Origin: Candidatus Cloacimonadota bacterium
GTDB lineage: Bacteria > Cloacimonadota > Cloacimonadia > Cloacimonadales > WRIO01
NCBI GenBank assembly: GCA_009777575.1
Contig: WRLO01000006.1
Span: forward strand, 1-64,000
Reading direction: 5' to 3'
Length of the DNA stretch: 64,000 bases
A model generated the notes under the pieces. That model saw only the letters and a list, made by a program, of their open reading frames with translations. It did no database searches and was not told the DNA's origin. The translations under genes and the position numbers were made by a program. Numbering within the stretch: the stretch's first letter is position 1; every line of letters begins with the position of its first letter. Positions 24,718 through 60,115 of this stretch are shown piece by piece.

Positions 24718-24789
24718 AATTTATTACCTCTTTTTTAATTATTTTTTTTTCTTTAACACAGGGTAGATCATCCAGTCGCGGAATCTCAC

Positions 24790-27700
24790 CTATCTCAACA
24801 ACACCATTCTTCTGGTGACACTTTCTCCTCCAGCCTGAAGACGATAGAAATATACTCCACTTGCTACTTCATTGCCATGTTCATTTCTCCCATTCCAGAG
24901 TATTTCATGGCTTCCGGCTGGCATTAATTCATCTATTAATACCCGAATCTTTTGACCTCTGATATTGAAAATCTCAAGGTTAACCTTTCCAGAGACAGCA
25001 AGATTGAAATTTATCATAGTCTCAGGATTGAAAGGATTCGGATAATTACCCATTTCAATATCCATAAAGGGTGCCATATTTTCAATACCCTCTTTTTTGT
25101 CAAGATTTTTTATTTTTTCGAATATATCCTCTTGCAATATTATAAATTCTTCAAGGCTATTAGGTCGGTGTTTACCTACTGTCGGAAAAGACCTACTACC
25201 TTGCTCCTGCAACCTAAAATAACAATATCCTTGATTCAATTCCGCAAGTAGAGTGCTGATAATATCGTAATCCTGCTCAATGATGTCTTCATAGATATAA
25301 ATCGCATCAAAATAATCAGAATTGAACATACGAGCCATACCTTTGGTCTCAAGAACTATATTTTCCAGATTGTCATGCTCTATACTTTCCAAAAAATCCC
25401 ATAGTTCTTCAAAATCTCCTTCATGCAAATAGTTCGCTTGAAACAATAAAGGAACAGCTAAAATAGCGTATTCATCATCAGGATAATCCTCTATCAAACC
25501 CATAAATATCTCCATTGCTTGCTCATAATCTCCTTCAGCAAAAGATTCTATACCATCATCATAAAGCAGTCTTGGAGTTATTGGCGGATCTGGGGCAGGT
25601 GGCACAAATTGAAAACAATTTATACAAGGAAAAAACTTAGTGGGGTCAGCTCTTGAAATCAACACATCGATAACATGAAGTCGTGGTGTGATAGGTGAAT
25701 TACTCGCATTCGCTCTCAATAAATAACCTGTATTAGGGATATGGGGGTCATCATATTTTATTCTCGGAGGGCGAAATGCGTTGGATTGCGGAAAGATAGG
25801 AAAGGCTGAAAGCTGAGCATTAATTTGATTCAGCCTATTGTTACTGATCATCAAATTTTGTCCGATGATGCTTTTTATATTTCCATAAAAAAAGATTCCA
25901 TGCTGTGTATTATTTTCTAGTCTGCCTTCTTTTATCTCTGCAAAGCTATTATATATTAGGATACCAAATCCAACATTATCATATATCTCTGTAGAAAATA
26001 TTTTATTGTGACCGGGAGAGTTGTTTATAGCTATGCCATTAACATTGTTTTCATATACCTTTGAGTCATACATCTCTATTAAACTTTGATTGAACACATA
26101 CAGATGACGCAAATTTTGACGATAATGAATATTGTCAAAGATGCCCTTAGAATTGTTCTGGATAGTAAAACGGTGCAATTTCTCAATTATAGAATCGCTG
26201 ATTTCTGCTTCACTATTGTTTTGAATAAAAACTTGCGAACCTATCGAATCACCGCGAATTATCGAATTATTCTTTACATCAAGCACGCTTCCATTGTCAA
26301 TAATCAACCTACTCGAAGCATCTAAATTTAAAAAGCTTTGGGTGAGTTCGAAAGACCCATTGTTTACATTTATCTGACCCTGACGAACTGCATATAGATC
26401 ACTATTGTTTAAGGTTAGTTTTCCACCTGAATTGATAGATATTTGACTATTATCGCCACGGTGAGATAATATACTGCTACCAAATAGGGACAATCTACCA
26501 TTGTTTTCTATCTCAAGAAAACCAGAGCTTCTCAATATGAGATTGCTTTGAGATACCATAACTATATTTGAAGATGTATCTATTATGTAAAGTGCCTCAA
26601 ATCCAATTTCTACTGAACCACGAACAAAAGACACAACACTATCATCTTTTATCCATAACATTGTATCTGGTGAATAAACTTTGATGGCTGTATTTCCCAT
26701 ATTCAATCTTGAGTTTTCTATGACAAACTGAGCAGAATTACGAATATCTATCTCACCAACACTTATTGATTTTATATTGTTATTCCGAATGATGATAGCG
26801 CTATCAGGTCCACCTACTCTGATGAAAGGAGCAGAAACGGAAGTATTTTCAATTATTAATGTTCCGTGACGGACAGTAATCCCAAAAAATTGGTTTAAAG
26901 GGTCTTGATGACTGGAAGAATAGACCATACTATCAGAAATAGTCAATACCGCTCCATTGTCAATTACCCAGTTTTTCGATAATGCTATGTTGCTGGTAAT
27001 GAGGGAGTCTGCTGTTATTATATGCTGGAGACCCATGACTCGCATTACTGGATTAAACGCGTTCAGACGACCACCTGTTGATGTTTTACCGATTAATGAT
27101 GAATTTCTATCAACTCCATCAAGCAAATACTCTTTCATCATTATAGCAACATCACCAGGCTGTAAAAGAGATTGTTCTATGATATCACTATTCGATGCTG
27201 AATACATCAAACCTATTACCCCAGCGGTCAAAGGGGCTGCCAATGATGTTCCAAGACCGTATCTGTATGTGAAAGGATTATTTTGTGTTGGATCGAAATC
27301 AGCAGTGTAAACTCTAACAGCAGGTGAACCTAAATGAATTTTTTGCTCTCCAAAGGCAAAATTATAATGTAAAATATCTTGATTGTTTGTACCAGTGACC
27401 CTTATCAGATAATCAGAACTTACACAAGCCCATGGACTATTATTTATTTCATCATAATTTTTTGGTTCATTTTCGGACCCATATATACTAAGGATCCCTA
27501 CTTCGCCTAAACTATTGACAATGGCATTATAATTAGCCATATAAGCATCAAAGTCAGCTGGATTCCACCCATAAGAACCATAAGACCGATTAACAGCAAC
27601 GATATATTTTCCTAATGAACCTCCTGAGATGTTGTACAAATTTCTTTGCTGCCTTAAATTTTCTAAAGCAGAAAAAATGTCAACAATTCCATTTTCTGAA

Positions 27701-28464
27701 GGTACTATTGGCATTGAAAAAACATTGTTATATCTACTAATTCCACTTATACCACCTTCTAAATTTGTTTTTCCTCCAAACATACCACTGACTCTTAACC
27801 CGTGATGATTAAAAAATGAGCTACAATCATCAATATCCATATTTACACCATCTATGTAATTTAGGTCTGGATGTTCCATGTAGTGGAAATCACCATCAAT
27901 AACGGCTATGTTTATTTGTAGAGTTGTGTCTGGATTTGCTTTTGATATTAGATCCCAACTTTTTAATAAGCCAATATCTGCTCCTGGAATTCCATGTATG
28001 GAAAGAAAATCAATCATCGTTATTTGTCCTGTATTGTGGTAATGCCATTGCCTGTAGAAATAATTATCATGTATGGGATAAATATCATCTTGATAAATGA
28101 TATTATCGAAATCGTTAACCGCAATAGATACATTAGTTTCAACATTGCTTTCTTGAGGATGAACAATATAATTAAAATGAGCATTATAAACATCAGAATC
28201 TATGCTAATAAGATTTAAGAAAGTTCTTTCATTGATACGATTTTCGTTGAATGAAAAATGGTGCATATTCAGGGATAAAAATGTAATTGCCTCATATTTA
28301 AATTCGTATTGTGAATATCTAGCGACAAAATCTCGTATTTCATTTTGTGTGATATTTTGATGAAATCTTACAATAATTTCACCAGGTATCCTACCATTTC
28401 CATACATAGAATAAAATCCTATAAAAATAAAAATGATTAACATAATTACTTGTCTATTCTTCAT
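24790..28464 (-). CDS. Secreted subtilisin-like protease with beta-helix, TPR and FlgD-type domains (array 1)
   Basis: This 1224-residue protein is the last gene of array 1. In order it shows a signal peptide (1-~22); one propeptide-like module (~27-104: PGEIIVRF, RYSQY, FSFN, SDVYNAHFN); an S8 catalytic domain with Asp190 (IAVIDGDF), His221 (NHHGLRVSG), oxyanion Asn332 and Ser407 (GTSLAAP); a right-handed beta-helix of INSGGKLTLNNS-like repeats (~480-900); a TPR-like pair (~990-1090); and a FlgD-type sorting domain (last ~85). It is probably an active surface protease, made as a zymogen whose module folds and blocks the catalytic domain. From the GGRLNAFNPVMRVMG segment onward it is nearly identical to the protease at 51315, but upstream of that the two differ greatly. 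Confidence 0.85.
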   Translation of the reverse strand: MKNRQVIMLIIFIFIGFYSMYGNGRIPGEIIVRFHQNITQNEIRDFVARYSQYEFKYEAITFLSLNMHHFSFNENRINERTFLNLISIDSDVYNAHFNYIVHPQESNVETNVSIAVNDFDNIIYQDDIYPIHDNYFYRQWHYHNTGQITMIDFLSIHGIPGADIGLLKSWDLISKANPDTTLQINIAVIDGDFHYMEHPDLNYIDGVNMDIDDCSSFFNHHGLRVSGMFGGKTNLEGGISGISRYNNVFSMPIVPSENGIVDIFSALENLRQQRNLYNISGGSLGKYIVAVNRSYGSYGWNPADFDAYMANYNAIVNSLGEVGILSIYGSENEPKNYDEINNSPWACVSSDYLIRVTGTNNQDILHYNFAFGEQKIHLGSPAVRVYTADFDPTQNNPFTYRYGLGTSLAAPLTAGVIGLMYSASNSDIIEQSLLQPGDVAIMMKEYLLDGVDRNSSLIGKTSTGGRLNAFNPVMRVMGLQHIITADSLITSNIALSKNWVIDNGAVLTISDSMVYSSSHQDPLNQFFGITVRHGTLIIENTSVSAPFIRVGGPDSAIIIRNNNIKSISVGEIDIRNSAQFVIENSRLNMGNTAIKVYSPDTMLWIKDDSVVSFVRGSVEIGFEALYIIDTSSNIVMVSQSNLILRSSGFLEIENNGRLSLFGSSILSHRGDNSQISINSGGKLTLNNSDLYAVRQGQINVNNGSFELTQSFLNLDASSRLIIDNGSVLDVKNNSIIRGDSIGSQVFIQNNSEAEISDSIIEKLHRFTIQNNSKGIFDNIHYRQNLRHLYVFNQSLIEMYDSKVYENNVNGIAINNSPGHNKIFSTEIYDNVGFGILIYNSFAEIKEGRLENNTQHGIFFYGNIKSIIGQNLMISNNRLNQINAQLSAFPIFPQSNAFRPPRIKYDDPHIPNTGYLLRANASNSPITPRLHVIDVLISRADPTKFFPCINCFQFVPPAPDPPITPRLLYDDGIESFAEGDYEQAMEIFMGLIEDYPDDEYAILAVPLLFQANYLHEGDFEELWDFLESIEHDNLENIVLETKGMARMFNSDYFDAIYIYEDIIEQDYDIISTLLAELNQGYCYFRLQEQGSRSFPTVGKHRPNSLEEFIILQEDIFEKIKNLDKKEGIENMAPFMDIEMGNYPNPFNPETMINFNLAVSGKVNLEIFNIRGQKIRVLIDELMPAGSHEILWNGRNEHGNEVASGVYFYRLQAGGESVTRRMVLLR

Positions 28465-28475
28465 TTATCTCTCCT

Positions 28476-29645
28476 TTAATTAATAACAATAAATTTATTT
28501 ATTATTTCTGATGTTATTTTGTTGTCTTTTGAAAAGAGATTTGAAAAGGATATTCTATAAAAATATAGTCCACTAGCAACATAATTGCCTTTATCATCTC
28601 TTCTATCCCAGACAAAAATATTGTTACCTTCTTTTGTTTGTGATACACTTGATGCTCTTATCAGCTGTCCACGCACATTATAGATTCTTATTTCTGCTCT
28701 TGTATTTTGCATACTGGCTCCAGCGAATTCAAATTCGTTATCAATTCTCCAAACAATTGTAACCTCATTTAATCTCACTGGATTTGGAAAAACATAGCTT
28801 GAAGCTTGAGCAAGGAATAAAATGTCATCAATTTCATTAGAGGGCGGATCGTAGGATTTCTCGTAAAAAATAAAATCGACCTTTTTTACCCTATCATCAC
28901 TATAAAGAATTTTTTGAATATCGCGTCCATGGATCAAATTGAAATTAAATGAAACATGAATAAATTCACCTTCAAGCCAAGTATACTGAAGAAATCTTAG
29001 ATCATAATGAATATAATCTGATATAAATTCTGCTATACCTGGACTATTTTGTAAGCTGATTAACAGCAATTCAGGCACCCATTCAAGAGGGAATCCAGCT
29101 GCATATACAATCTCATGATTATTGACTAAATCTAAAAAAACAAACATATCTACCGAACTGCTATCAAAAGCAACGCAGTATTCATCAAAAAAATAATTTT
29201 CATTTTGCCATATTTCAACAATATATTGGGAAAATTCTAAAAAAAACAAATCTTTTTTATCTTCGTTTGTTCCCTTTTGAAATCGTATAAGTAGTCTATT
29301 TTTTTGCCATATGTCGTTAAATTGTGCCATTTTTACTCTTTCATCATTTCTTATTATTTGCAACATATCGTAAATCTCAATCAGACTTTGATCGAAGGTA
29401 AACAGTAAAATTTTTGCTTCATACCAACCTATTAAGCGATCATCTAGTTTAGGTAAATGATATATTCTAAGATTATAATGGGAATAATCGGAAATAAATA
29501 TTTCGAGATCATCATCGTCTATGTGATTTTCAAATCTGATGATGATTTCTCCCGGAACGGGAATCTTTTCTTCAGCCACAAGGCTTTTGTATCCTACTAT
29601 TCCAAAATATAATAGGGTGAACATCAATAAAGTTTTGTGTTTCAT
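28476..29645 (-). CDS. Secreted three-module propeptide-like protein, mosaic C terminus (array 1)
   Basis: The 389 residues comprise a signal peptide (MKHKTLLMFTLLYFGIVGYKS type), three copies of the ~75-residue module (first from PGEIIIRFENHIDDDD to the NDERVKMAQF strand), and a FlgD-type domain (EIRIYNVRGQLIRAS, FVWDRRDDKGNYVASGLYFYR). The N-terminal part belongs to the group at 29660 and 56103-59706, while the sorting domain matches the GLUG protein at 34678, so the gene looks recombined. It lies 11 bp upstream of the protease gene, with a clear AGGAG, so the two are surely co-translated from one mRNA. No catalytic motif is visible; a role as protease inhibitor, chaperone or adhesin is inference. 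Confidence 0.7.
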   Translation of the reverse strand: MKHKTLLMFTLLYFGIVGYKSLVAEEKIPVPGEIIIRFENHIDDDDLEIFISDYSHYNLRIYHLPKLDDRLIGWYEAKILLFTFDQSLIEIYDMLQIIRNDERVKMAQFNDIWQKNRLLIRFQKGTNEDKKDLFFLEFSQYIVEIWQNENYFFDEYCVAFDSSSVDMFVFLDLVNNHEIVYAAGFPLEWVPELLLISLQNSPGIAEFISDYIHYDLRFLQYTWLEGEFIHVSFNFNLIHGRDIQKILYSDDRVKKVDFIFYEKSYDPPSNEIDDILFLAQASSYVFPNPVRLNEVTIVWRIDNEFEFAGASMQNTRAEIRIYNVRGQLIRASSVSQTKEGNNIFVWDRRDDKGNYVASGLYFYRISFSNLFSKDNKITSEIINKFIVIN

Positions 29646-29659
29646 ATTTTACTCCTTTT

Positions 29660-30856
29660 TTATTTATTTGGGTTTAAGATGATGAATCTACCAGTTAGTG
29701 TTTCTTTCATTTCATTGTAGTTTGCTGGTGTTGAGCTTGAAGAACTGGTGATTCTATAGAAATAAATACCAGGTGATACCCTTTGTCTGCTTGCATCTCT
29801 CATATTCCATGAAAATATATTTTCATCAGTTTTAGTCTGTATATCAGAAATTCTTTGCACAAGCTGCCCTCTGATGTTGTAGATTCGTAGCTCTACTCCA
29901 TAGCCCCCTTTTGCAAGGGAGGTGGGTGAGGAATGTAAATTAAATCTTATCATCACCTCATCCCCTCTCACAGGATTAGGATAAGCAAAACTCGATTGTG
30001 ATACTACCGGGATTATTTGATCAAAGCCACTAGATGGAGGGTCTGGAGGATTAAGCACTTCTATAAATTCCTCTTCTTGAACCCTAACTACTCTTTCATC
30101 ATTTTCAAGGATTTTAATTAAGTCATATACTTCTATCAGACTGAAATTAAATACAAAAATCCTATGCGTAGATGGAGTTGGAATATCGAAACTATACACA
30201 TGTTGAATGTCATAATGTGAATAATCAGATACTATCTCATCTATTAGCTCATCAGATGAATTTTGTAATTTCATCCCCACTGCCCCAGGCACATATTCTG
30301 AAGGTAGTCCTGCCAGTTTTACTCTTTTGTCAGCTCTGACAAGTTTAAGAAGCTCTAATGGTTCTATGGTGTTAGATCTGTATTCATAATATACATATAA
30401 TGCTGAAGGAACACAGTCTGGACACCACCACCAGTTCATCATAAAAAGATAGTATTGAGAATAATCTCGAATAAAATCCCAATAGTCTCTTACATCATTT
30501 AACAGAATTATGATTCTTTCAAACCGAATATCAAAGTTGTGATTGGCAGTATAAACCCTTTCATCTGCTTGAATCATCCTCAAAAACTCATTTTCTTCAA
30601 CTAAATTGTAGTTGTAATAAAAATGAATTAATTTAAAATCAGTTTGTGGAATCCATCCCGACCAATCATCAATAATAGCGAGGTCGTAATACACATAATC
30701 AGTAATATACTCTTCAAGTTTATCATCATCTATGTGATTTTCAAATCTGATGATGATTTCTCCCGGAACGGGAATCTTTTCTTCAGCCACAAGGCTTTTG
30801 TGTCCTATTATTCCAAAATATAGTAGGATGAACACCAATAAAGTTTTGTGTTTCAT
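29660..30856 (-). CDS. Secreted three-module propeptide-like protein (array 1)
   Basis: The 398 residues comprise a signal peptide, three modules (~29-107, ~108-190, ~191-270) and a FlgD-type domain. Module 1 shows the pattern best: PGEIIIRF strand, DDKLEEYITDY helix, LIHFYYNYN strand, NEFLRMIQADERV helix and TANHNF strand. Module 2 has a WWWCPDC pair. It is highly similar to the proteins at 56103, 57314 and 58510 in array 2, also at DNA level. The sorting domain carries an in-frame C/G-rich insert (29903-29933) of variable length among paralogues. AGGAG lies in the 13-bp spacer before the start. Confidence 0.7.
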   Translation of the reverse strand: MKHKTLLVFILLYFGIIGHKSLVAEEKIPVPGEIIIRFENHIDDDKLEEYITDYVYYDLAIIDDWSGWIPQTDFKLIHFYYNYNLVEENEFLRMIQADERVYTANHNFDIRFERIIILLNDVRDYWDFIRDYSQYYLFMMNWWWCPDCVPSALYVYYEYRSNTIEPLELLKLVRADKRVKLAGLPSEYVPGAVGMKLQNSSDELIDEIVSDYSHYDIQHVYSFDIPTPSTHRIFVFNFSLIEVYDLIKILENDERVVRVQEEEFIEVLNPPDPPSSGFDQIIPVVSQSSFAYPNPVRGDEVMIRFNLHSSPTSLAKGGYGVELRIYNIRGQLVQRISDIQTKTDENIFSWNMRDASRQRVSPGIYFYRITSSSSSTPANYNEMKETLTGRFIILNPNK

Positions 30857-30869
30857 ATTTTACTCCTTT

Positions 30870-31988
30870 TTACTTTAGTATCGTTAATCTACCCGTATGT
30901 ATGTTTTCTTTAGATTTTATTCTAAAGAAATATGTTCCCGACGCTGCTCTTTGATTGTGTTGATCTTTCAAATCCCAAATAAAAGCAATTTCTCCGGCAT
31001 TTTCTTGAAAATTTTCAGATGTCTTTATTAACTGTCCTCTTATGTTGTATATAGATATCACATACTCAGACAAGGTTTCTGTGGACTTTTCTGTCAGTTT
31101 ATCATCTTCTGTTTTCATCTTTATAATTACTTCCTCAAACCTTGCAGGATTCGGATAAACTGTTATATGTTCTATCTTTGACAGGGTTTCATCATTTGAA
31201 GAAGTTACTGGACCAGAGCATATATGAAGTAATCTTTCATAATAAATAAACTCTGTATTATTTACCCTATAATCTTGTCTTATTTCCTTAAAAACTGTAA
31301 ATTCGTTATAAAGTAAATGATCGAAAGTTAATAACCATGTATTTGAATACATAGATAGTGGACCTTTTACATAAATCTCAAAATGAGAAAAATCATCTAA
31401 AAACTCATCAAAAGATTCGTTTACAACCCAGCTGTCTAATCTTACACTTATTTCACCAGGTTTCCAACCTTTACTAAACATAGTATCGATAACCCTCTCA
31501 TCATTTCTCATCATATCGTATACCTCACCGGGATAAAACTGATTGTCATCAAAAATAAAGCTAGAATAGTTATAGGGGGTTCCCCAACCAGAAACACTTC
31601 CGTTTAAACCAATGTGTGAATAACTGTTTATAAAATCTGCTTCGCAAACATCATCTGATAGATTAATAGCAAGAGTTCTAACCCTCCAGTCATCAAGAAA
31701 AGATGATAAATATACCCTTGAATCATTTTGTATCATACTAAGAAAATTATTTACATCAATGGTGGTTTTATCAAAAAAATAAAACCCCAATAAACATCCT
31801 CCACACACCATATCTAATAGTCTTAACTGGTATTGGCTATAATCATTTAAAAATCTTTGATAAGCTTGCCCAGTTACATGACTGTATAGCATTATCTCCA
31901 TAGCTTGAGCAAGACTTTCATTAGCGAAAAAATTGCTATTGCTCCATATACACAATACGATTAATAAAAAAATTATTCTTTTTTTCAA
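30870..31988 (-). CDS. Secreted three-module propeptide-like protein, second subgroup (array 1)
   Basis: The 372 residues start with a signal peptide (MKKRIIFLLIVLCIWSNSNFF) and hold three modules with the same helix-strand pattern (FLNDYSQYQL, NDSRVYLSSF; SYSHIGL, NDERV; GEISVRL, DDFSHFEI). The FlgD-type domain follows (YPNPARFEEV, IYNIRGQLIKTS, AASGTYFFRI). Module 1 has a VCGGC pair at the spot where the other subgroup has its CxxC in module 2. It is nearly identical to the protein at 54970 in array 2. Spacers of 13-14 bp with GGAG join it to its neighbours. Confidence 0.7.
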   Translation of the reverse strand: MKKRIIFLLIVLCIWSNSNFFANESLAQAMEIMLYSHVTGQAYQRFLNDYSQYQLRLLDMVCGGCLLGFYFFDKTTIDVNNFLSMIQNDSRVYLSSFLDDWRVRTLAINLSDDVCEADFINSYSHIGLNGSVSGWGTPYNYSSFIFDDNQFYPGEVYDMMRNDERVIDTMFSKGWKPGEISVRLDSWVVNESFDEFLDDFSHFEIYVKGPLSMYSNTWLLTFDHLLYNEFTVFKEIRQDYRVNNTEFIYYERLLHICSGPVTSSNDETLSKIEHITVYPNPARFEEVIIKMKTEDDKLTEKSTETLSEYVISIYNIRGQLIKTSENFQENAGEIAFIWDLKDQHNQRAASGTYFFRIKSKENIHTGRLTILK

Positions 31989-32002
31989 AACATACTCCTT
32001 TT

Positions 32003-33523
32003 TTATTTATCTGGGTTTAAGATGATGAATCTACCAGTTAGTGTTTCTTTCATTTCATTGTAGTTTGCTGGTGTTGAGCTTGAAGAACTGATGATTCTAT
32101 AGAAATAAATACCCGGTGATACCCTTTGTCCGCTTGTATTTCTCATATTCCATGAAAACATATTTCCATCAGTTTTAGTCTGTATATCAGAAATTCTTTG
32201 CACAAGCTGCCCTCTGATGTTGTAGATTCGTAGCTCTACATTATTGCCCCCTTTTGTAATGGGGAGGGCGGAGGGATATAAATTAAATCGTATCATTACC
32301 TCATCCCCTCTCACTGGATTGGGATAGGCAATGCTACTAAACAACGATATTGTATTTTCAATGTTATCAAAAGTGCTTACAGTGTGATCTAAAGGAATCA
32401 TTCCAGTTAAATATGGATATCCTCCATTGATTTTTGGATCCATTGACCAGACACTCTCAAAATCCCATCCATTGTTTATATAAGTTGATGTTTGTTGTAA
32501 TTCCGTTGTTGTTAATCCATAATTGTTTTGTTCAATATAAAAAATCGGTCTAACTCCAGTAGATTCTGTATCCCAAAAGCTATTTTTCGTGTTTCCACCA
32601 AATCCACCAGAATCAACAGGAAAATGCGAAGTACTAGCAACTATGACATAAGAAATATCTGGAAAATGAAATGTTGTAAATCCAGTAGTTATTCCCCCTA
32701 TTCTTTGAGTTCCTTCTAAAAAATTACCAAAAAAGAACGAATTATTTATACTACCTTGACTCATTGTTCCTGCTATTCCTGCAGTTTGACCATTATACTT
32801 TACATTTGAATGAATATGGACCTTTGCATAGCAATATTTTATTTCAGTAATGCCAGCATAACCTATCAACCCACCAGTGTATGTTCCAGTTAATAAAACC
32901 GGGGGATTTTCTGGATCCCAGATAAAATCAAAATCTCTACCATTTACAAAACCTGTAGCAGAGCATCGTAAAATACTCCCTCCAATAATAGTTCCCACTA
33001 TAGACCCAACATTAGCACTTCCCGTGATATCTACATTCATCAATCTGATATTTAATAAATTTGCACTACGAACCATACCAAAAAGTCCTGCATTTCTAGC
33101 TATAAAACTATCTATTGCAGTGTTCATAAAAAGGTTTGAAATAATAAACCCATTCCCATCATAATCTCCGTAAAATGCTTTGTAGATTTCCATCCCCATT
33201 AAAATACTATGATCAGCATAATAAAAACCAATGGGGCTAAATCCTGCTCCATTATTCCAATGTATAGTTTCTGTAGCATCTATGTCAGCTATTTGATGAA
33301 AATAAAACTTTTCTAAAACAGAGCCATCGAGGGATTCGTTACCCCAAACTGTTTCTGTTTCAGACAACCACCTGAGATTATTTAGATTCGCTATTAAAAA
33401 CGGGTTCTCTTCAGATCCAGCGTTATGTTCATAAAAATTTGAGGGTGGTTCTGCAAATGTTTCACTTAATACAGGCAGCACTATCATAAACCAAGCTATC
33501 AATAATAATAAAGTTTTTCTCAC
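32003..33523 (-). CDS. Secreted GLUG-motif protein with FlgD-type sorting domain (array 1)
   Basis: The 506-residue protein has a signal peptide and a start segment found in GLUG proteins (GSEENPFLIANLNNLRWLS). Repeats of the GLUG type follow (NAGLFGMV, NVGSIVGTI, TGGLIGYAG, GQTAGIAGTM), then NGGYPYLTGM before a FlgD-type domain. GLUG repeats form beta-solenoids and occur in bacterial adhesins and surface proteins. The sorting domain is almost the same at DNA level as that of the gene at 58510, unlike its GLUG region. The start codon is GTG at 33523, with a purine-rich GGGGAAT upstream. It contains no propeptide-like module. Confidence 0.75.
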   Translation of the reverse strand: MRKTLLLLIAWFMIVLPVLSETFAEPPSNFYEHNAGSEENPFLIANLNNLRWLSETETVWGNESLDGSVLEKFYFHQIADIDATETIHWNNGAGFSPIGFYYADHSILMGMEIYKAFYGDYDGNGFIISNLFMNTAIDSFIARNAGLFGMVRSANLLNIRLMNVDITGSANVGSIVGTIIGGSILRCSATGFVNGRDFDFIWDPENPPVLLTGTYTGGLIGYAGITEIKYCYAKVHIHSNVKYNGQTAGIAGTMSQGSINNSFFFGNFLEGTQRIGGITTGFTTFHFPDISYVIVASTSHFPVDSGGFGGNTKNSFWDTESTGVRPIFYIEQNNYGLTTTELQQTSTYINNGWDFESVWSMDPKINGGYPYLTGMIPLDHTVSTFDNIENTISLFSSIAYPNPVRGDEVMIRFNLYPSALPITKGGNNVELRIYNIRGQLVQRISDIQTKTDGNMFSWNMRNTSGQRVSPGIYFYRIISSSSSTPANYNEMKETLTGRFIILNPDK

Positions 33524-33537
33524 TTTTATTCCCCTTT

Positions 33538-34668
33538 TTATTTTAGAATTAATATCTTACCAGTGTATATCATTTCATTAGAATGAATAATTCTATATAA
33601 ATAAAAACCAGATGAAACTGTTTGTCCATAAATGTTTTTTCTATCCCATATAAATGTCATTTTATCATTTTCATGGATAAAGTCCTTTGACTTCATTATT
33701 TTTTGCCCCCTAACATTGTAGATGACAATCTCTGAATTACCGATATCTCTTTTATCTAAATTTCCAGAGGGTGAAGAAATTGCAAAAGTCACATTATCGT
33801 TCAATGCAGGATTGGGAGTGACAGAAACACTATTAAGAGATACCCAGGTTTCATCATAATTTGAAGCAACTGGTCCAAAGCAAATTAATTGTGTATCTAA
33901 AAAATCAAAAGTAGCATAACTAACTCTTTCGTCATTTAAAAGCTCTTTTAATAAATAAAACTCATCATGCAATATAGGGTCGATTGAGATTACCCAATCA
34001 TATCCATAAATAGACGGAGTCTGAGATATTATTGACATATCATAATGAGAATAATCTTTTAAAAAAATTTCCATTATTTCATCAATAACCCAGTCTTTTG
34101 TTCTAAAAGCAATGTATCCGAAGCGCCAACCATATACAATATCAGCAGCTGATACTTTAATATCATATTTTAAAAGATCCAAAAAACAACCTGAATAAAT
34201 TGATGTATCGTCAAAAGTAAATTCTTTTCTATCGTCACCATGATTTGGAATAGATCCTCTGAGTTTATATTCTGAATATTTGTTGATCAAGTCAGCTTCT
34301 TCACTGTCATTTGCAAGTTTTAATGATATGGTTCTAGGTCTCCAATTTGGCTCTGATAAACCGTTATTAAACCTAGCACTACTTACTCTAGAATCATTTC
34401 TAATCAATCCTAAAAAATCGTTTTCTTCAATAATTTTTCTATTGAATATGAACCATTTTTCGTTGCAAAAATCGTCATTACAAGAATTAATAATAAATTT
34501 CAATTGATATTGACTATAATCATTTAAAAAGCTCAGATATTCTTGTCCAATAACATGGCTGTACAAATGGATGTAGATTGGTTTTGCGAGTGCTTCATTT
34601 GCTTTAAGATTATTAAAAAATACTAACGAACATAAGATGAACATTATAGCAATAAGTCTTTTTTCCAT
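33538..34668 (-). CDS. Secreted three-module propeptide-like protein (array 1)
   Basis: The 376 residues hold a signal peptide, three modules (FLNDYSQYQLKF, NDSRVSSARF; KYSEYKL; FLKDYSHYDM, NDERVSYATF) and a FlgD-type domain (IYNVRGQKIMKS, SSGFYLYRI). It is a diverged member of the 30870/54970 subgroup, retaining its TGQxY- and YSHV-like first module. The Cys pair in module 1 is wider here (NSCNDDFC). The gene stands between the two GLUG genes with 9-14-bp spacers, and GGAG lies before the ATG. Confidence 0.7.
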   Translation of the reverse strand: MEKRLIAIMFILCSLVFFNNLKANEALAKPIYIHLYSHVIGQEYLSFLNDYSQYQLKFIINSCNDDFCNEKWFIFNRKIIEENDFLGLIRNDSRVSSARFNNGLSEPNWRPRTISLKLANDSEEADLINKYSEYKLRGSIPNHGDDRKEFTFDDTSIYSGCFLDLLKYDIKVSAADIVYGWRFGYIAFRTKDWVIDEIMEIFLKDYSHYDMSIISQTPSIYGYDWVISIDPILHDEFYLLKELLNDERVSYATFDFLDTQLICFGPVASNYDETWVSLNSVSVTPNPALNDNVTFAISSPSGNLDKRDIGNSEIVIYNVRGQKIMKSKDFIHENDKMTFIWDRKNIYGQTVSSGFYLYRIIHSNEMIYTGKILILK

Positions 34669-34677
34669 TTTTTCTCC

Positions 34678-36237
34678 TTATTTGATTATGACAAATCTAC
34701 CCATGATATCAGATTGATTTTCATTCTGTGCCGAGGATATTCTATAAAAATATAGTCCACTGGGAACTTCTAAATTGCTTATATCTCTTCTATCCCAGAC
34801 AAAAATATTGTTACCGTTTTTTGTTTGTGATACATTTGATGCTCTTATCAGCTGTCCACGCACATTATAGATTCTTATAGCTGTCTCACAAACAACATAA
34901 GCGGTTTTTGGTAGCTTGGAATTTATTTGCCATCGAATTTCTACTTCCCCTCCTCTCACAGGGTTCGGAGAAACAAAACTCTGTATCAAAGGATAAATCG
35001 TATCATCAATAGTGCTTGTTATAGGTTCAAGAATATTTCTTAAAAAGGGATATCCATCATTCACTTCAGAATCCATTTTCCAGACATTTTCAAAATCCCA
35101 ACCATTATTTTCAAAAGTTGAAATTATCTTCAATAAATCGGTCGACATACCATAATTATTTATCAATAAATTCTCTCCAATCAAAGGATAGCCAAATGGT
35201 ATGTGGATTCCAGTTGCATCTGTATCCCAAAAGCAATTTCTTATTTCAGAAGAAACTATAAAGTTCACTAATCCACTTGAATGATTGGCAAATCTATTTC
35301 TACTAGTCACATATACATTTCTAATTTCAGTTTGAATTGCTTCACTCGATATCCCTGCACATGTTGAGGCATTATAAAAATTGTCAATATCACCATAAAA
35401 AAAAGAATTTTTTAAACTACCCTTGATTTTTATTGCAACAAGACCACCTACCATACTGATAACATGGGCAATATATAAATTATCATGTTTAGCTTTAATA
35501 TTTGTTTGAACATAACAAAATTCGATCTCTGAACTATATGATAGTCCTATCAAACCCCCAATATTTAGGTTTGGTATTACTATGGGCATTATATCATCAT
35601 TGTCTTCTGGAGGATATATATCGTAATTCACCCCTGTTACATAACCATTTGATGAACAATACCGAATTATACTATGATATGCCTGAGCTACAATAGAGCC
35701 TATTGATGAATTACCAGTGATATCGGCATGGTCAAGTCTTATATTCAGAATATTGCTTTGAACAATAAATCCAAAAAATCCAGCATTATTTGAAATATAT
35801 TTATCTGTAGCTGAATTGATGTATAATCCTTTTATAGAGTGATAATTTCCGTTATAATATCCGAAAAAAGGTTTCTTTTTAATGATTACATTGGGGAAAG
35901 AATAATAATTTATTTCTAGTAAACCTATAGGTCTAAATCCTTTTCCGTCATTCCAGTGTATTGTTTCTGTGGCATCAATATCTGCAATTTGAATGAAATG
36001 ATATTTCTTTTCTACAATCCAATTCTTCTCATCTACATCTGTAGTGTAACCATGTCCCCATATATTCTCTGTCTCACTTAACCATCTCAGATTCCTCAGA
36101 TTCGCTATTAAAAACGGGTTCTCTTCAGATCCAGCGTTATGTTCATAAAAATTTGAAGGTGGTACTGCTAATGTTTCACTTAATACAGGCACCACAGCCA
36201 TAAAACAAGCTATTAATAATAATAAGGGTTTTCTCAC
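34678..36237 (-). CDS. Secreted GLUG-motif protein with FlgD-type sorting domain (array 1)
   Basis: The 519-residue paralogue of the GLUG protein at 32003 has the same signal peptide type and leader (GSEENPFLIANLRNLRWLS), GLUG-like repeats (NAGFFGFIV, SSIGSIVAQA, NIGGLIGLS, VGGLVAI) and a GYPFLRNI ending. Its FlgD-type domain is of another kind (IYNVRGQLIRAS, FVWDRRD) and matches that at 28476. A probable surface adhesin or scaffold. GTG start at 36237 after AGGAG. A 45-bp spacer lies before it. Confidence 0.75.
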   Translation of the reverse strand: MRKPLLLLIACFMAVVPVLSETLAVPPSNFYEHNAGSEENPFLIANLRNLRWLSETENIWGHGYTTDVDEKNWIVEKKYHFIQIADIDATETIHWNDGKGFRPIGLLEINYYSFPNVIIKKKPFFGYYNGNYHSIKGLYINSATDKYISNNAGFFGFIVQSNILNIRLDHADITGNSSIGSIVAQAYHSIIRYCSSNGYVTGVNYDIYPPEDNDDIMPIVIPNLNIGGLIGLSYSSEIEFCYVQTNIKAKHDNLYIAHVISMVGGLVAIKIKGSLKNSFFYGDIDNFYNASTCAGISSEAIQTEIRNVYVTSRNRFANHSSGLVNFIVSSEIRNCFWDTDATGIHIPFGYPLIGENLLINNYGMSTDLLKIISTFENNGWDFENVWKMDSEVNDGYPFLRNILEPITSTIDDTIYPLIQSFVSPNPVRGGEVEIRWQINSKLPKTAYVVCETAIRIYNVRGQLIRASNVSQTKNGNNIFVWDRRDISNLEVPSGLYFYRISSAQNENQSDIMGRFVIIK

Positions 36238-36282
36238 TTTATGTCTCCTTTTTTATGTTTTATTGACAAAAATCATACATAT

Positions 36283-37608
36283 TTAATTCCACAAATCGAC
36301 AAAGGGTATGAAGGCTACCCATAATATTCGTGGATCGTTGTTTAAAATATCTAACATTTCATATTCATTTATTATCTCGATATTGAACGATAAAGTAGCA
36401 GTGTTTGTCCAATAGTTTTTGGATAATACGATTAATTCATATTCATTATAGGATTCTATAAAATCATCAAGTTCTTCCCAAAAAACATGATATTCTAATA
36501 ATGCACTGAATTGTCCCATTTTCCAATGCCTTTGCACTCTATTGAAATCTGCATTCAAAACCCACGGATGATTGTTTACCATTTCGAGTAATTCCAATTC
36601 ATTTATCAAATAATGATTAAATGTTACCCAAAGATTTTTAGATTGAATGTTATGCCCCATAAGAGTCATTTGGTATTTCATAAAAATATCAGGAAATCCA
36701 TCCAATATTTCATTGGAGAGTTCATCTTCCATTTTTATTATCAACTCACCTATCACCCAATCTCTTGGGTATTCATTGAAATCAGCTCTCATTATCAGAG
36801 GGTCATTCCGGAGCATTTCAAGAAACTCGAATTCATCGATTAAATCGTAATTAAAGGAAAAATGAACGCTTTCTACCATCTTATTAAACGATAAGATGGA
36901 TGTCTCAAAATCTGAATATGAATATTTGATTTCTTCAGCCCAGCCAAACCCTCTTGCATTTATACGAGCCACTATCTCTCCCTTTACCCAAGTTTCATTC
37001 TCATTGTCTAGATGAACTATAGGAATATCTGCAAATTTTACCCTAAAGTCATCTCTGATAAGTAGCAACATTTCAAAATCATCTATTAATTTGTTATTAA
37101 AAGAAAATTCGAATGCTCCCCTCTCAACGCGAGTAGGAATGTTAGACACAAGCTCATATTTTGAATATAGACTGAGCATTTGTTTTATAAATATGAGTAT
37201 TTCTGTGGTAGAGGAATTAATGTGTAACGAACCACTAATGAGTCCACTTATCCATGTAAGATTATCTTCATTTTTGCTTATTCTTTGGATTCTTTTATCA
37301 TTTTCAAGTAATTCAAGCAACAGTTTCTCATCTTGTGTTTTTGTCATGAAAGTTAAGCGCATGTAATTATCTGGCAATAAATGTGCTGTTATCTCCAAAT
37401 TCCATTCTGCATAATCCTGCAAAAAATTATTGAGGAGATTGCCTACTACATCTTGATGCAAAATTGCTTTTAAATCGCCTTTTGTCCATTCTTCAGCCTC
37501 ATGTTGATTAGTTGGATGGTTCGTGCAACTAATAGCTACTACGAGAATAATAATCACAATTATTATCATTGAGATTTTTAAATTTTTGTGCAATTTTGTG
37601 TATTCCAT
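36283..37608 (-). CDS. Lipoprotein of five propeptide-like modules, no sorting domain (array 1, first gene)
   Basis: From the ATG at 37608 the product has 441 residues. The frame continues to a TTG at 37629, but AAGGA lies just in front of 37608. A strongly hydrophobic stretch ends in VAISC-TN, a fair lipobox, so the protein is probably lipid-anchored after cleavage before Cys. Five modules follow, each opening with W.(K/I/V)G(E/D/Q/L)... and closing with (D/N)(D/H)...(A/V).FN-like strands (e.g. KGEIVARI, FSFNYDLIDEFEFLEMLRNDP, MRADFN). Unlike all other array members it lacks the FlgD-type domain, so it would stay in a membrane while its relatives are sorted outward. It is the first gene of the array and may be a membrane partner of the system. 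Confidence 0.7.
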   Translation of the reverse strand: MEYTKLHKNLKISMIIIVIIILVVAISCTNHPTNQHEAEEWTKGDLKAILHQDVVGNLLNNFLQDYAEWNLEITAHLLPDNYMRLTFMTKTQDEKLLLELLENDKRIQRISKNEDNLTWISGLISGSLHINSSTTEILIFIKQMLSLYSKYELVSNIPTRVERGAFEFSFNNKLIDDFEMLLLIRDDFRVKFADIPIVHLDNENETWVKGEIVARINARGFGWAEEIKYSYSDFETSILSFNKMVESVHFSFNYDLIDEFEFLEMLRNDPLIMRADFNEYPRDWVIGELIIKMEDELSNEILDGFPDIFMKYQMTLMGHNIQSKNLWVTFNHYLINELELLEMVNNHPWVLNADFNRVQRHWKMGQFSALLEYHVFWEELDDFIESYNEYELIVLSKNYWTNTATLSFNIEIINEYEMLDILNNDPRILWVAFIPFVDLWN

Positions 37609-37970
37609 AAATTCCTTGAATTGTTCCAAAATATAGTAGGATGAACATCAATAAAGTTTTGTGTATCATTGTTTTTTTTTACCTATAACTTCTTTTTTCA
37701 CACGGAGATTGCTTCGTAAGGCAATTCAAGTAAGCAACCTCGCAAAGACGGGATAGGGAACCTCGTCTAAAACTTCACACTTCCCCCCCAATAAATGTGG
37801 GGGGGAAAAATCCCCCCTCGTAAAGGGGGGGGTAAACATCTCAAAGACGGATATAGCACCGCTAAGGGAAAAAAATCGAAAAAAGTTTTATAAGGTATTC
37901 GGATTGCGTTCATTGCAATCTCGTCACTCTGGGTATTTTGTCTTAAATCTTGATTCCTATTTCTAAAACC
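37609..37970. other. Gap between nusG and array 1: fossil signal-peptide sequence and hairpins
   Basis: On the minus strand, 37669 down to about 37626 reads M-I-H-K-T-L-L-M-F-I-L-L-Y-F-G, the signal peptide of the 57314-type paralogues. It is out of frame with the lipoprotein gene by one base, so it is a remnant. Two C/G-run hairpins follow (37781-37832). No complete gene and no convincing promoter are visible. Confidence 0.75.
37781..37832. repeat. Two adjacent C-run/G-run hairpins
   Basis: TTCCCCCCCA (37781-37790) pairs exactly with TGGGGGGGAA (37798-37807). Directly beyond it, TCCCCCC (from 37811) pairs with a G-run ending near 37832. They lie just downstream of nusG and may block read-through into array 1, but no T-run is associated. 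Confidence 0.7.
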
Positions 37971-51314: not shown

Positions 51315-54300
51315 CTATTTCAACAACACCATTCTTCTGGTGACACTCTCACCTCCAGCCTGAAGACGATAGAAATATACTCCACTTGCTACTTCGCTAT
51401 CATACTCATTTCTCCCATTCCAGAGTATTTCGTGGCTTCCGGCTGGCATTAATTCATCTATTAATACCCTGATCTTTTGACCTCTGATATTGAAAATCTC
51501 AAGGTTAACCTTTCCAGAGACTGTAAGATTGAAATTTATCATAGTCTCAGGATTGAAAGGATTCGGATAATTACCCATTTCAATATCCATAACAGATATC
51601 ATATTTTCAATATCCTCTTTTTTGCCAAGGTTTTCTATTCTCTCGAATATATCCTCTTGCAATATTATAAACTCTTCAAGGTTATTAGGTCGGTGTTTAC
51701 CTACTGTCGGAAAAGACCTACTACCTTGCTCCTGCAACATCAAATAACAATATCCTTGATTCAATTCCGCAAGTAGAGTGCTGATAATATCGTAATCCTG
51801 CTCAATGATGTCTTCATAGATATAAATCGCATCAAAATAATCAGAATTGAACATGCGAGCCATACCTTTGGTCTCAAGAACTATATTTTCCAGATTGTCA
51901 TGCTCTATACTTTCCAAAAAATCCCATAGTTCTTCAAAATCTCCTTCATGCAAATAGTTCGCTTGAAACAATAAAGGAACAGCTAAAATAGCGTATTCAT
52001 CATCAGGATAATCCTCTATCAAACCCATAAATATCTCCATTGCTTGCTCATAATCTCCTTCAGCAAAAGATTCTATACCATCATCATAAAGCAGTCTTGG
52101 AGTTATTGGCGGATCTGGGGCAGGTGGCACAAATTGAAAACAATTTATACAAGGAAAAAACTTTGAGGGGTCAGCTCTTGAAATCAACACATCGATAACA
52201 TGAAGTCGCGGTGTGATAGGAGAATTACTTGTATTCGCTCTCAATAAATAACCTGTATTAGGGATATGGGGGTCATCATATTTTATTCTCGGAGAGCGAA
52301 ATGCGTTGGATTGTGGAAAGATAGGAAAGGCTGAAGGCAGAGCCTCAATTTGATTCAGCCTATTGTTACTGATCATCAAATTTTGTCCGATGATGCTTTT
52401 TATATTTCCATGAAAATAGATTCCATGCTCTAAATTTTCTTCTATTCTGCCTTCTTTTATTTCAGCAAAACTCCCATTTATCAGAATACCAAATCTGGCA
52501 TTATCATAAATTTCTGTAAAATATATTTTATTCAGACCCGGTGAATGGTTAATAGCTATGCCATGAAAATTGTTTTCATATACCTTTGAGTCATACATCT
52601 CTATTAAACTTTGATTGAACACATACAGATGACGCAAATTTTGACGATAATGAATATTGTTAAAAATGCCCTTAGAATTGTTTTGGATAGTAAAACGGTG
52701 CAATTTCTCTATTGTAGAATCGCTGATTTCTGCTTCACTATAATTCTGAATAAAAACTTGCGAACCTTCAGAATCACCGCGAATTATCGAATCATTCTTT
52801 GCTTCAAGCACGCTTCCATTGGCAATAATCAACCTACTCGAAGCATCTAAACTTAAAAGGCTTTGGGTGAGTTCGAAAGACCCATTGTTCACAGTTATCT
52901 GACCCTGACGAACTGCATATAGATAACTATTGTTTAAGGTTAGTTTTCCACCTGAATTGATAGATATTTGACTATTTTCGCCACGGTGAGATAATATACT
53001 GCTACCCAATAGGGACAATCTGCCATTGTTTTCTATCTCAAGAAAACCAGCATTTCTCAATACGAGATTGCTTTGAGATCCCATAACTATATTTGAAGAT
53101 GTATCTATTCTGTAAAGTGCCTCAAATCCAATTTCTACTGAGCCACTAACAAAAGACACAACACTACCATCTTTTATCCATAACATTGTATCTGGTGAAT
53201 AAACTTTGATGGCTGTATTTCCCATATTCAATCTTGAATTTTCTATGACAAACTGAGCAGAATTACGAATATCTATCTCACCAACACTTATTGTTTTTAT
53301 ATTGCTATTCCGAATGATGATAGCGCTATCAGGTCCACCAACTCTGATGAAAGGAACATAAACGGAAGTATTTTCAATTATTAATGTTCCGTGACGGACA
53401 GTAATCCCAAAAAATTGGTTTAAAGGGTCTTGATGATTGGCAGAATAGACGATACTATCAGAAATAGTCAATACTGCTCCATTGTCAATTACCCAGTTTT
53501 TCGATAGTGCTATGTTGCTGGTAATGAGGGAGTCTGCTGTTATTATATGCTGGAGACCCATGACTCGCATTACTGGATTAAATGCGTTCAGACGACCACC
53601 GGTGATGGTTGTTTCTTGTAAATCAGGAACCCTGTCCACACCTTGCAATAGATATTCTTTAAACTGTAATGCGACTTCTTTCGGATGTGTCCGTGACCTT
53701 TCAATTAAATCATCGCTTGCTGCATGATACATCAGTCCTATTACACCGGCTACATAAGGGGCTGAAAAGCTGGTTCCCCATGTTGTTGTATAATCGTTTA
53801 AAAGGGTTCTGTGTCCTGTAGTAACTATATTGTGTCCAGGGGCACCTAAATTAACAGTATATTTCCCATAACCTCCACCACCGCTTATTGGACCAACATA
53901 TCGAACCTCTCTATTAGTAGTAGCTGTTACTACTATCAAGTTTTCTGGTATTTCGCTTATTAATTGAGGCGAAACAGTAATGTGTAAATTTGTATTACCA
54001 GATGACCAGATGAATAGTATGCCAGCATCACCCATTTCTTTGATTTTATTGGCAGCAGGAGATGTAGGATTATTAAAAATACTTTGAACTCCTTCATATG
54101 GATGATAAACCGCAACAATATTTAACCCACCATTATTATTGTTATAGTTTTCTCTCTGTGCAATAAAATAATCCATTTCTGAAAGATAACCATTAATAAG
54201 AGTTCGCCTATCTAAAATTATGGTTTTAATATCTAAAAGATCCCCACCTATTCCAGATATTCCTAAATAATTGTTCGAAGTTGCAGAAATTAATCCTGCT

Positions 54301-54956
54301 GTCATTGTGGCATGTGAGTTGAATTCTGAGCTTGGGTTAAGAGGTGGATAAATATATCCGGGTGGATGCCACATATTTTCTTGAAGATCGTCGTGAGTGG
54401 TTTCAAGGTAAATATCTCTTGCTGCTACGAAAATTGGTCTAGAGTTGATATTAGGTATTGTAGACAACAAATTCCAAGTATTAAGAGCATCTATATCTGC
54501 TCCAATTATTCCTATATGCCCATGAATTATTTGCCCGGTATTGTTCAATGCCCATTGTGAAGAAAAATAATAATCATTGAGTGTGTTTTGAAAATTAAAT
54601 TCTGACGCATCTACCTCAACCATGTCCAAAATTCCAATTTTTTCTCTTTCGAGATAATAATTCAGCATAGCAGAAACGACATACCTATCATCTAGTAATA
54701 CATTCAATAGATTTTCTTCTGAAATTGTGTTTGTATTGAAAGTGAAAAGATATGTGTTTGATCGTTCAGATATCATCTCTGTTTTTTGTAATCTATACTG
54801 TGAATATGAGGTTAAAAATAGATAAACATCATTTCCCCGTATATTTGATTCTAAAGAGACAATAATTTCTCCAGACTTAAAATTGGGTCCATAAGCATTT
54901 AAACTTATATTCCATATCATTAAAAATAAGAAACAAATTAAAATCTGTCTGTTCAT
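51315..54956 (-). CDS. Secreted subtilisin-like protease with beta-helix, TPR and FlgD-type domains (array 2)
   Basis: The 1213-residue protein has the same build as that at 24790: signal peptide, one propeptide-like module (SGEIIVSLES..., TSYSQYRL, FTFNTN, DDRYVVSAMLN), S8 domain with Asp181, His215 (NSHATMTAG), Asn321 (SSGNT) and Ser396 (WGTSFSAP), beta-helix, TPR-like part and sorting domain. The His motif has A in place of the usual G. The catalytic part differs strongly from that of the array-1 protease, while everything from GGRLNAFNPVMRVMG to the C terminus is nearly identical. Last intact gene of array 2. Confidence 0.85.
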   Translation of the reverse strand: MNRQILICFLFLMIWNISLNAYGPNFKSGEIIVSLESNIRGNDVYLFLTSYSQYRLQKTEMISERSNTYLFTFNTNTISEENLLNVLLDDRYVVSAMLNYYLEREKIGILDMVEVDASEFNFQNTLNDYYFSSQWALNNTGQIIHGHIGIIGADIDALNTWNLLSTIPNINSRPIFVAARDIYLETTHDDLQENMWHPPGYIYPPLNPSSEFNSHATMTAGLISATSNNYLGISGIGGDLLDIKTIILDRRTLINGYLSEMDYFIAQRENYNNNNGGLNIVAVYHPYEGVQSIFNNPTSPAANKIKEMGDAGILFIWSSGNTNLHITVSPQLISEIPENLIVVTATTNREVRYVGPISGGGGYGKYTVNLGAPGHNIVTTGHRTLLNDYTTTWGTSFSAPYVAGVIGLMYHAASDDLIERSRTHPKEVALQFKEYLLQGVDRVPDLQETTITGGRLNAFNPVMRVMGLQHIITADSLITSNIALSKNWVIDNGAVLTISDSIVYSANHQDPLNQFFGITVRHGTLIIENTSVYVPFIRVGGPDSAIIIRNSNIKTISVGEIDIRNSAQFVIENSRLNMGNTAIKVYSPDTMLWIKDGSVVSFVSGSVEIGFEALYRIDTSSNIVMGSQSNLVLRNAGFLEIENNGRLSLLGSSILSHRGENSQISINSGGKLTLNNSYLYAVRQGQITVNNGSFELTQSLLSLDASSRLIIANGSVLEAKNDSIIRGDSEGSQVFIQNYSEAEISDSTIEKLHRFTIQNNSKGIFNNIHYRQNLRHLYVFNQSLIEMYDSKVYENNFHGIAINHSPGLNKIYFTEIYDNARFGILINGSFAEIKEGRIEENLEHGIYFHGNIKSIIGQNLMISNNRLNQIEALPSAFPIFPQSNAFRSPRIKYDDPHIPNTGYLLRANTSNSPITPRLHVIDVLISRADPSKFFPCINCFQFVPPAPDPPITPRLLYDDGIESFAEGDYEQAMEIFMGLIEDYPDDEYAILAVPLLFQANYLHEGDFEELWDFLESIEHDNLENIVLETKGMARMFNSDYFDAIYIYEDIIEQDYDIISTLLAELNQGYCYLMLQEQGSRSFPTVGKHRPNNLEEFIILQEDIFERIENLGKKEDIENMISVMDIEMGNYPNPFNPETMINFNLTVSGKVNLEIFNIRGQKIRVLIDELMPAGSHEILWNGRNEYDSEVASGVYFYRLQAGGESVTRRMVLLK

Positions 54957-54969: not shown

Positions 54970-56088
54970 TTACTTTAGTATCGTTAATCTGCCTGTATGT
55001 ATGTTTTCTTTAGTTTTTATTCTAAAGAAATATGTTCCCGATGCTGCTCTTTGATTGTATTGATCTTTCAAATCCCAAATAAAAGAAATTTCCCCAGCAT
55101 CATTTTGAAAATTTTTAGATGTCTTTATTAACTGTCCTCTTATATTGTATATAGATATCACATAATCAGACAAGGTTTCTGGGGACTTTTCTGTCAGTTT
55201 ATCATCATCTGTTTTCATCTTTATAATTACTTCCTCAAACCTTGCAGGATTCGGATAAACTGTTATATGTTCTATCTTTGATAGGGTTTCATCATTTGAA
55301 GAAGATATTGGACCAGAGCATGGATGTAAAATTCTCATATAATAATTAAACATAATACCTCTTACTCTATAATCCTGTCTTAATTCCTCATATAATAAAA
55401 ATTCATTATCCAGTAAATAACTGAAAGATAATAACCATGTATTTGAGTTTACCGATATTTGGCTTATTTCAATAAACTCAATATGAGAAAAGTCATCCAA
55501 AAATTCATCAAAAGCTTCGTTTACAACCCAGTTGTCTAAGTTTACTATTATGTCACCAGGTTTCCAACCTTTACTAAACATAGTATCGATAACCCTTTCA
55601 TCATTTCTCATCATATCGTATACCTCACCGGGATAAAATTGGTTGTCATCAAAAGTAAAGCAAAAATAATCTGAAGGTGTATCCATACCATAAACACTTC
55701 CGTTTAAACCAATGTGTGAATAACTGTTTATAAAATCTGCTTCGCAAACATCATCTGAAAGCTTAATGGCAAGTGTTCTAACCCTCCAGTCATCAAGAAA
55801 AGATGATAAATATACCCTTGAATCATTTTGTATCATACTAAGAAAATCATTTACATCAATGGTGGTTTTATCAAAAAAATAATACCTCAATAAACATTCA
55901 TCACACACTATATCTAATATTCTTAACTGGTATTGACTATAATCATTCAAAAATCTTTGATAAGCTTGCCCAGTTACATGGCTGTATAGTGTTATATACA
56001 TCGCTTGAGCAAGACTTTCATTTGCGAAAAAATTGCTATTGCTCCATATACACAATACGATTAACAAAAAAATTATTCTTTTTTTCAT
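54970..56088 (-). CDS. Secreted three-module propeptide-like protein, second subgroup (array 2)
   Basis: The 372-residue near-twin of the protein at 30870 has the same signal peptide, three modules (FLNDYSQYQLRI; SYSHIGL; GDIIVNL, DDFSHIEF) and FlgD-type domain. Module 1 has VCDEC where its twin has VCGGC. Differences cluster in module 3, consistent with diversification of one face. It stands 13 bp before the protease gene with GGAG in the spacer. Confidence 0.7.
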   Translation of the reverse strand: MKKRIIFLLIVLCIWSNSNFFANESLAQAMYITLYSHVTGQAYQRFLNDYSQYQLRILDIVCDECLLRYYFFDKTTIDVNDFLSMIQNDSRVYLSSFLDDWRVRTLAIKLSDDVCEADFINSYSHIGLNGSVYGMDTPSDYFCFTFDDNQFYPGEVYDMMRNDERVIDTMFSKGWKPGDIIVNLDNWVVNEAFDEFLDDFSHIEFIEISQISVNSNTWLLSFSYLLDNEFLLYEELRQDYRVRGIMFNYYMRILHPCSGPISSSNDETLSKIEHITVYPNPARFEEVIIKMKTDDDKLTEKSPETLSDYVISIYNIRGQLIKTSKNFQNDAGEISFIWDLKDQYNQRAASGTYFFRIKTKENIHTGRLTILK

Positions 56089-59706: not shown

Positions 59707-60115
59707 TTTTTTACTCTTCATCATTTTCTATTAAGCGTCACAACTCTTCGAGATGTGTAAGGAATATTAAAAATTAATTAAAAATCGACTTTTCGGAATG
59801 GACTCCGTTCGGAATGACAAGGTTTGCGTTCATAGTGACAAAGGTCTCCTTATAATCAATCCATACCTGTTTTAAACTCCAGCTAATTATGAAAATAATG
59901 TAGAGGTGGAGCTTGCCTCCATCCTAATATCAAGACAGAGGTTATTGCTTCGTTCCTCGCAACTGCTACTACAATATGGGGTTATTTCCTTAGTATGACA
60001 ATGTTTCAGGATCATGACAAAGAGTGTCGCTTGGATGATTCGAGCCTTATGCTGCGATGATTCTCAGCGTAAAAAAAACATTTCTACTCAACCCTACTCT
60101 ATTGATGCCGCGTAA
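59707..60115. other. Gene-free gap upstream of array 2
   Basis: I see no gene in these 409 bp between cheA and array 2. It holds a CTCCGTTCGGAATGAC segment (~59810) that recurs in a similar form near 62745. A promoter for array 2 should be here if the array is not read through from cheA, but no convincing -35/-10 pair was found. Confidence 0.6.

Follow-up and report, generated by a model that had tools for sequence, protein, structure and literature searches.

Stand-alone tandem proteins built from S8 prodomain-like modules are encoded beside subtilase genes in a Candidatus Cloacimonadota genome

The 64,000-nt window, by which we mean the whole stretch of DNA analysed here, contains 31 copies of a module that, as judged by profile comparison, is homologous to S8 prodomains of the PF22148 (fervidolysin) kind, and most of these copies lie in separate multi-module proteins whose genes stand upstream of a subtilase gene. 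On balance, we favour the reading that the multi-module proteins are trans-acting propeptides, which would restrain, and perhaps help to fold, the co-produced exported subtilases; their binding, their inhibitory or folding action and their cellular location are inferred.

Array 1 (24790-37629) consists of eight genes on the minus strand with spacers of 9-45 bp. The gene for a five-module lipoprotein comes first, those for four three-module proteins and two module-less GLUG-type proteins follow, and an S8 subtilase gene is the last. The modules do belong to a protease operon, as the first-pass annotation had claimed. The genes lie where that annotation had placed them (24790-37608), but 37608 is an internal ATG and the lipoprotein gene reaches 37629. 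Its count of a module of ~76 residues (~75 in the annotation) common to six genes (five copies in the lipoprotein, three in each of four proteins and one in the protease) was matched exactly by profile. The features are as follows.

24790..28464, minus strand: S8 subtilase of array 1, 1224 aa (Pfam S8 E 1.1e-6; TIGR04183 E 8.8e-9; catalytic columns; AlphaFold2 model)
28168..28389, minus strand: prodomain module of the array-1 subtilase (profile match; AlphaFold2)
28476..29645, minus strand: three-module T9SS-sorted protein B, 11 bp upstream of the protease gene; modules 29313-29558, 29088-29309, 28863-29081 (module profile, TIGR04183, AlphaFold2 of three modules)
29660..30856, minus strand: three-module T9SS-sorted protein C; modules 30533-30769, 30302-30526, 30068-30295 (module profile, TIGR04183)
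30870..31988, minus strand: three-module T9SS-sorted protein D; modules 31692-31904, 31473-31688, 31239-31466 (module profile, TIGR04183)
32003..33523, minus strand: GLUG-like protein, no module found by profile (T9SS-tail motif read from sequence; similar to 34678-36237)
33538..34668, minus strand: three-module T9SS-sorted protein F; modules 34363-34578, 34132-34344, 33901-34128 (module profile, TIGR04183)
34678..36237, minus strand: GLUG protein with T9SS tail, module-less (Pfam Glug E 3.9e-5; Por_Secre_tail E 4.9e-7)
36283..37629, minus strand: lipoprotein (AISC lipobox) with five modules, 37267-37488, 37021-37254, 36769-36990, 36538-36759, 36304-36525 (sequence and module profile)

The array-1 subtilase is composed of a signal peptide, one module (the prodomain), a catalytic domain, a beta-helix, a TPR-like stretch and a T9SS sorting domain, and its catalytic residues are intact (D190, H221, the oxyanion N332 and S407). 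Its module occupies residues ~26-100 by profile, between the signal peptide and the S8 domain, as first described. The T9SS C-terminal domain was found above the TIGR04183 cut-off in all four three-module proteins of array 1 and in the protease (27-40 bits against a cut-off of 23 at the C-termini of the scanned three-module proteins and proteases), and the five-module lipoprotein, with a short and free C-terminus, has no TIGR04183 match.

The design is not confined to one operon as first presented; it is present in array 1, but its actual extent is far greater. Array 2 (51315-59724) is built like array 1, and its four three-module proteins and subtilase carry 13 modules. The protease keeps the Asp, His, Asn and Ser catalytic set, as in array 1.

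51315..54956, minus strand: S8 subtilase of array 2, 1213 aa, with one prodomain module at 54654-54878 (Pfam S8 E 2.2e-16; module profile)
54970..56088, minus strand: three-module T9SS-sorted protein, 13 bp upstream of the protease gene (TIGR04183, module profile)
56103..57299, minus strand: three-module protein (module profile)
57314..58495, minus strand: three-module protein (module profile)
58510..59724, minus strand: three-module T9SS-sorted protein (TIGR04183, module profile)

Both arrays lie inside host operons, a placement that is provisional because the sequence is a metagenome assembly. Array 1 splits nusG and rplK (window 24717-37971), a pair separated by 19-414 bp in every one of the 11 relatives inspected, and array 2 splits cheA and cheR (window 50554-60116), which are 18-80 bp apart in four informative relatives. 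Since both arrays are co-oriented with the operons that they interrupt, they may be co-transcribed with them.

The recurrence of the module is not due to chance. The remaining window proteins hold 26 modules, and with a profile made from the five lipoprotein modules alone, 25 of them outscored all of 2800 shuffled proteins (best 8.0 bits), the exception being the middle module of 30870-31988; a profile made only from the two protease prodomains recovered most of the stand-alone modules. Moreover, in Bacteroidota and in other Cloacimonadota the profile of the window modules matches residues ~24-105 of S8 proteases, right behind the signal peptide, and records of Ca. Cloacimonadota and Ca. Tenebribacter are among the proteases closely related to those of the window. 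The module is N-terminal to the S8 domain in both window proteases and in these relatives, which is by definition not the case in the stand-alone proteins. HMM-HMM comparison bears out the homology: modules from stand-alone proteins only, aligned with S8 prodomains from outside the genome by HHalign, gave P 97.9 (E 4e-13), and P 87.3 with ten more distant AEPNY-type prodomains, against at most 0.5 for 50 column-shuffles and at most 1.1 for catalytic-domain blocks. The proposal of an S8 prodomain homologue stood with respect to the fervidolysin kind, but not with respect to the I9 model PF05922, which matched none of the window proteins, relatives or aligned proteases. PF22148 matches 19 of the 57 S8 proteases in the alignment, reaches E 0.25 at best against the prodomain of a relative, and matches no window protein above the Pfam cut-off. 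In a Pfam scan, the modules matched no known adhesin repeat family. No relatives came up when GTDB contigs and viral contigs were scanned for patterns of the three-module alignment. Matches to Avr proteins (E 0.03) in a PDB sequence search with the protease and the module profile were taken as chance, and that search was otherwise uninformative.

Structure prediction agreed with the beta-alpha-beta-beta-alpha-beta fold that had been expected, both in the proenzyme and in a stand-alone protein. In the AlphaFold2 model of the array-1 proenzyme (pLDDT 87.5), the module is arranged as E25-34 H40-49 E56-62 E67-71 H79-87 E92-100 with pLDDT 95-98, and in that of three-module protein B (pLDDT 77, nine sequences) the same fold is seen three times over. 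The PDB matches of the proenzyme model include the pro-forms of Plasmodium SUB1, pro-subtilisin E, Tk-subtilisin and fervidolysin (1r6v), whereas for the three-module model Foldseek gave only ferredoxin-like folds of a generic kind, the best at E 2.7e-3. Hence the fold alone is insufficient to identify the modules, and we dropped the Foldseek result as support for the I9 family. The pattern of hydrophobic core positions in the prodomains is retained in the stand-alone modules (r = 0.89 over columns), which diverge most from the prodomains at positions on the beta2-beta3 hairpin. Of five beta2/beta3 positions, picked post hoc and without coordinates, a mean of 4.3 are hydrophobic in prodomains versus 2.5 in stand-alone modules. 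This hairpin is a possible docking patch, which would often be lost in the stand-alone modules.

In the genome (3.76 Mb, 198 contigs, 91% complete), the profile search gave ~99 module matches over about 20 contigs. Its S8 genes number 32, whereas 58 relatives have a median of 4 and at most 15, these gene counts being approximate. Module matches were found in 10 of 125 genomes of the phylum, and those examined outside the source genome are single prodomain copies of S8 proteases, except in one genome of the same family, which encodes a two-module protein of 216 aa and a one-module PKD/T9SS fragment. A sample of 396 Bacteroidota-type genomes, centred on one from the Saprospiraceae, gave module matches in six, none of them tandem. 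In addition, DUF6438 lipoproteins of some Bacteroidota carry one C-terminal copy of the module and end a few residues later (L179:4570-5310, L180:99-860, L181:4653-5453), so single stand-alone copies are not unique to the source lineage.

At nine loci, an S8 gene is immediately preceded by a gene of the same orientation that encodes a stand-alone propeptide. The two gaps in the window measure 11 and 13 bp, and those at the other loci -4, -4, -4, -19, 0, -4 and -4 bp, that is, seven of the nine upstream genes overlap or abut the S8 gene, and three further stand-alone clusters precede truncated fragments of S8 prodomains. By chance, ~0.1 S8 neighbour would be expected among 13 clusters (32 S8 genes, very roughly 3000 genes assumed), approximate odds which are only a guide because the clusters are related by descent. 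On contig C49, an intact multi-module cluster has no S8 gene next to it, and more than 20 S8 genes have no stand-alone partner. Furthermore, the genome contains two more S8 prodomain families: type B (~120 aa), whose homology to the family of the window (type A) is undetectable by profile comparison (P 8), and type C (DFCDRTxLVxLEP...), at L147:1845-4607, L021:1482-2345 and L131-L145. Type B, too, is found in stand-alone lipoproteins, with two copies each (E 4e-23 and 1e-13 with the type-B prodomain profile), and the gene of one of them overlaps a type-B S8 gene by 4 bp, the type-B pair being on contig C156; for the coupling, this second family is the most telling case. Stand-alone genes of type A are also found upstream of S8 genes with type-B or type-C prodomains. 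Specificity between cognate module and protease was not supported by sequence similarity, since the module is closest to the prodomain of its own operon in 9 of 43 cases versus 3.9 expected, mostly at one locus. Between paralogous three-module proteins dN/dS is 0.3-0.45, which indicates that they are constrained by purifying selection. Positive selection on the tail behind the modules (dN/dS 0.7-0.9 versus 0.3-0.45 overall) was considered and rejected, as it involves few sites and relaxed constraint is as likely.

We propose that S8 prodomains were freed from the protease and then multiplied into multi-module proteins, which would probably be exported together with the subtilase encoded directly downstream and would bind its catalytic domain in the fashion of a propeptide. 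The bound subtilase would be kept inactive, and perhaps aided in folding, while it crosses the envelope and at the cell surface, where T9SS-tailed versions might travel with the enzyme, and lipid-anchored versions might hold it at a membrane. This trans-acting reading draws on the homology to S8 prodomains, the predicted fold, the signal and sorting elements, the coupling to S8 genes, purifying selection, the expansion alongside S8 genes and the precedent of SUB1-ProM described below. Against it we count the less hydrophobic candidate docking positions in stand-alone modules, the type-A genes before type-B and type-C proteases together with the weak cognate similarity, the T9SS-tailed proteins, which do not have the free C-terminus of classical I9 inhibitors, the generic ferredoxin-like matches of the stand-alone model, and both the C49 cluster and the partnerless S8 genes. 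A wider proposal, possible but somewhat short of probable, is that a network spanning the genome controls the subtilases. Two prodomain families unrelated to each other would independently have been made into tandem regulators that act in trans and are targeted to a membrane or the surface; their genes would be coupled in translation to those of the proteases and would have spread into operons of the host, nusG-rplK and cheA-cheR among them.

The same proteins might instead be surface scaffolds or ligands, in which the prodomain fold is reused as a stackable secreted domain and the protease is only its evolutionary source. The T9SS tails, the GLUG companion proteins in the array, a Big-like domain read from sequence in three module lipoproteins, and the retention of core positions with change at the candidate docking positions would all fit such a role, which we nevertheless consider rather unlikely, since tight upstream coupling to S8 genes recurs in two unrelated prodomain families and the modules have expanded alongside the S8 genes. 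It is less probable still that they arose merely as a side effect when protease genes were duplicated, as shortened prodomain genes that recombination has spread and that do little by themselves. Broken S8 genes and genes truncated to one module do exist on contigs C20, C24, C134, C138, C187 and C188, and the arrays contain homogenised segments, but most multi-module genes are open, have signal peptides and T9SS tails, overlap S8 genes by 4 bp and evolve at dN/dS 0.3-0.45. Finally, the short inter-module linkers and the co-produced protease would suit processed precursors or decoy substrates, which the subtilase cuts between modules to free active units (signals, toxins or nutrients); this is very improbable, as the modules are predicted to be folded domains and the linkers have no conserved cleavage motif on inspection.

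Compared with known systems, the trans-acting propeptides proposed here have partial counterparts. In fungi, Pbi2 and POIA1 are single stand-alone propeptide-like inhibitors of subtilases. In Plasmodium, SUB1-ProM is a stand-alone propeptide-like protein encoded beside SUB genes and a potent inhibitor of SUB1 (PMC6993865). The likeness is a separate propeptide-like protein with its gene beside subtilase genes (here at nine loci); the known ones are single-domain and eukaryotic with inhibition shown, whereas those described here are tandem, bacterial, encoded by dozens of genes and putative in function. A looser analogy is the dentilisin operon prcB-prcA-prtP of Treponema denticola, where a lipoprotein gene likewise lies upstream of a subtilisin-family protease gene and the lipoprotein PrcB interacts with PrtP and is required for it; PrcB is reported to lack homologues beyond the oral treponemes, and its description mentions no likeness to a propeptide (PMC8167434), and no PrcB family model matched in Pfam or NCBIfam scans of the window proteins. 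The fervidolysin-type prodomain (PF22148) shares profile homology, the place between signal peptide and S8 domain in proteases, the fold and the 1r6v match, while the modules here are mostly stand-alone, in one to five tandem copies with lipid or T9SS targeting, and do not reach the Pfam cut-off; with I9 (PF05922 / MEROPS I9) the fold is common but the model is unmatched. The DUF6438 lipoproteins (PF20033) are alike as stand-alone lipoproteins with one C-terminal module, and differ in the single copy, the DUF6438 fusion and the absence of an S8 gene in the neighbourhoods examined. The first-pass annotation knew of no described system with this design. The open-access papers searched likewise contain no account of tandem copies, bacterial lipoprotein or T9SS targeting, genome-wide scale or parallel conversion of two families, but single stand-alone propeptide inhibitors beside subtilases are already known, and outside fungi too.

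Propeptides are normally used once and then discarded. Here they have apparently been turned into a separate, multiplied class of proteins tied to the parent enzymes, and the repetition in two prodomain families makes the question testable inside one genome. If they inhibit in trans, they would be a bacterial counterpart of the eukaryotic stand-alone propeptide inhibitors, a route by which a cell that exports 32 proteases could protect itself, and a natural source of multivalent inhibitors of subtilases for study.

For the history of the arrays, the C-terminal ~725 residues of the two window proteases are nearly identical (dS 0.02-0.27), while their prodomain and catalytic heads have diverged (dS ~2), a pattern which points to recombination between the arrays, by which heads would have been swapped or tails homogenised. 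Directly downstream of array 2, a 159-aa ORF (window 50636-51115) duplicates the C-terminal end of the protease and looks like a recombination remnant. An out-of-frame remnant (MIHKTLLMFILLYFG) at window ~37590-37670, which precedes and overlaps the start of the lipoprotein gene, resembles the signal peptide of T9SS-type paralogues. At window 37700-37870 there is a GC-rich interspersed repeat (CGTCTTTGCGAGG...GAAGCAATCTC), which recurs as spurious ORFs near several other module loci.
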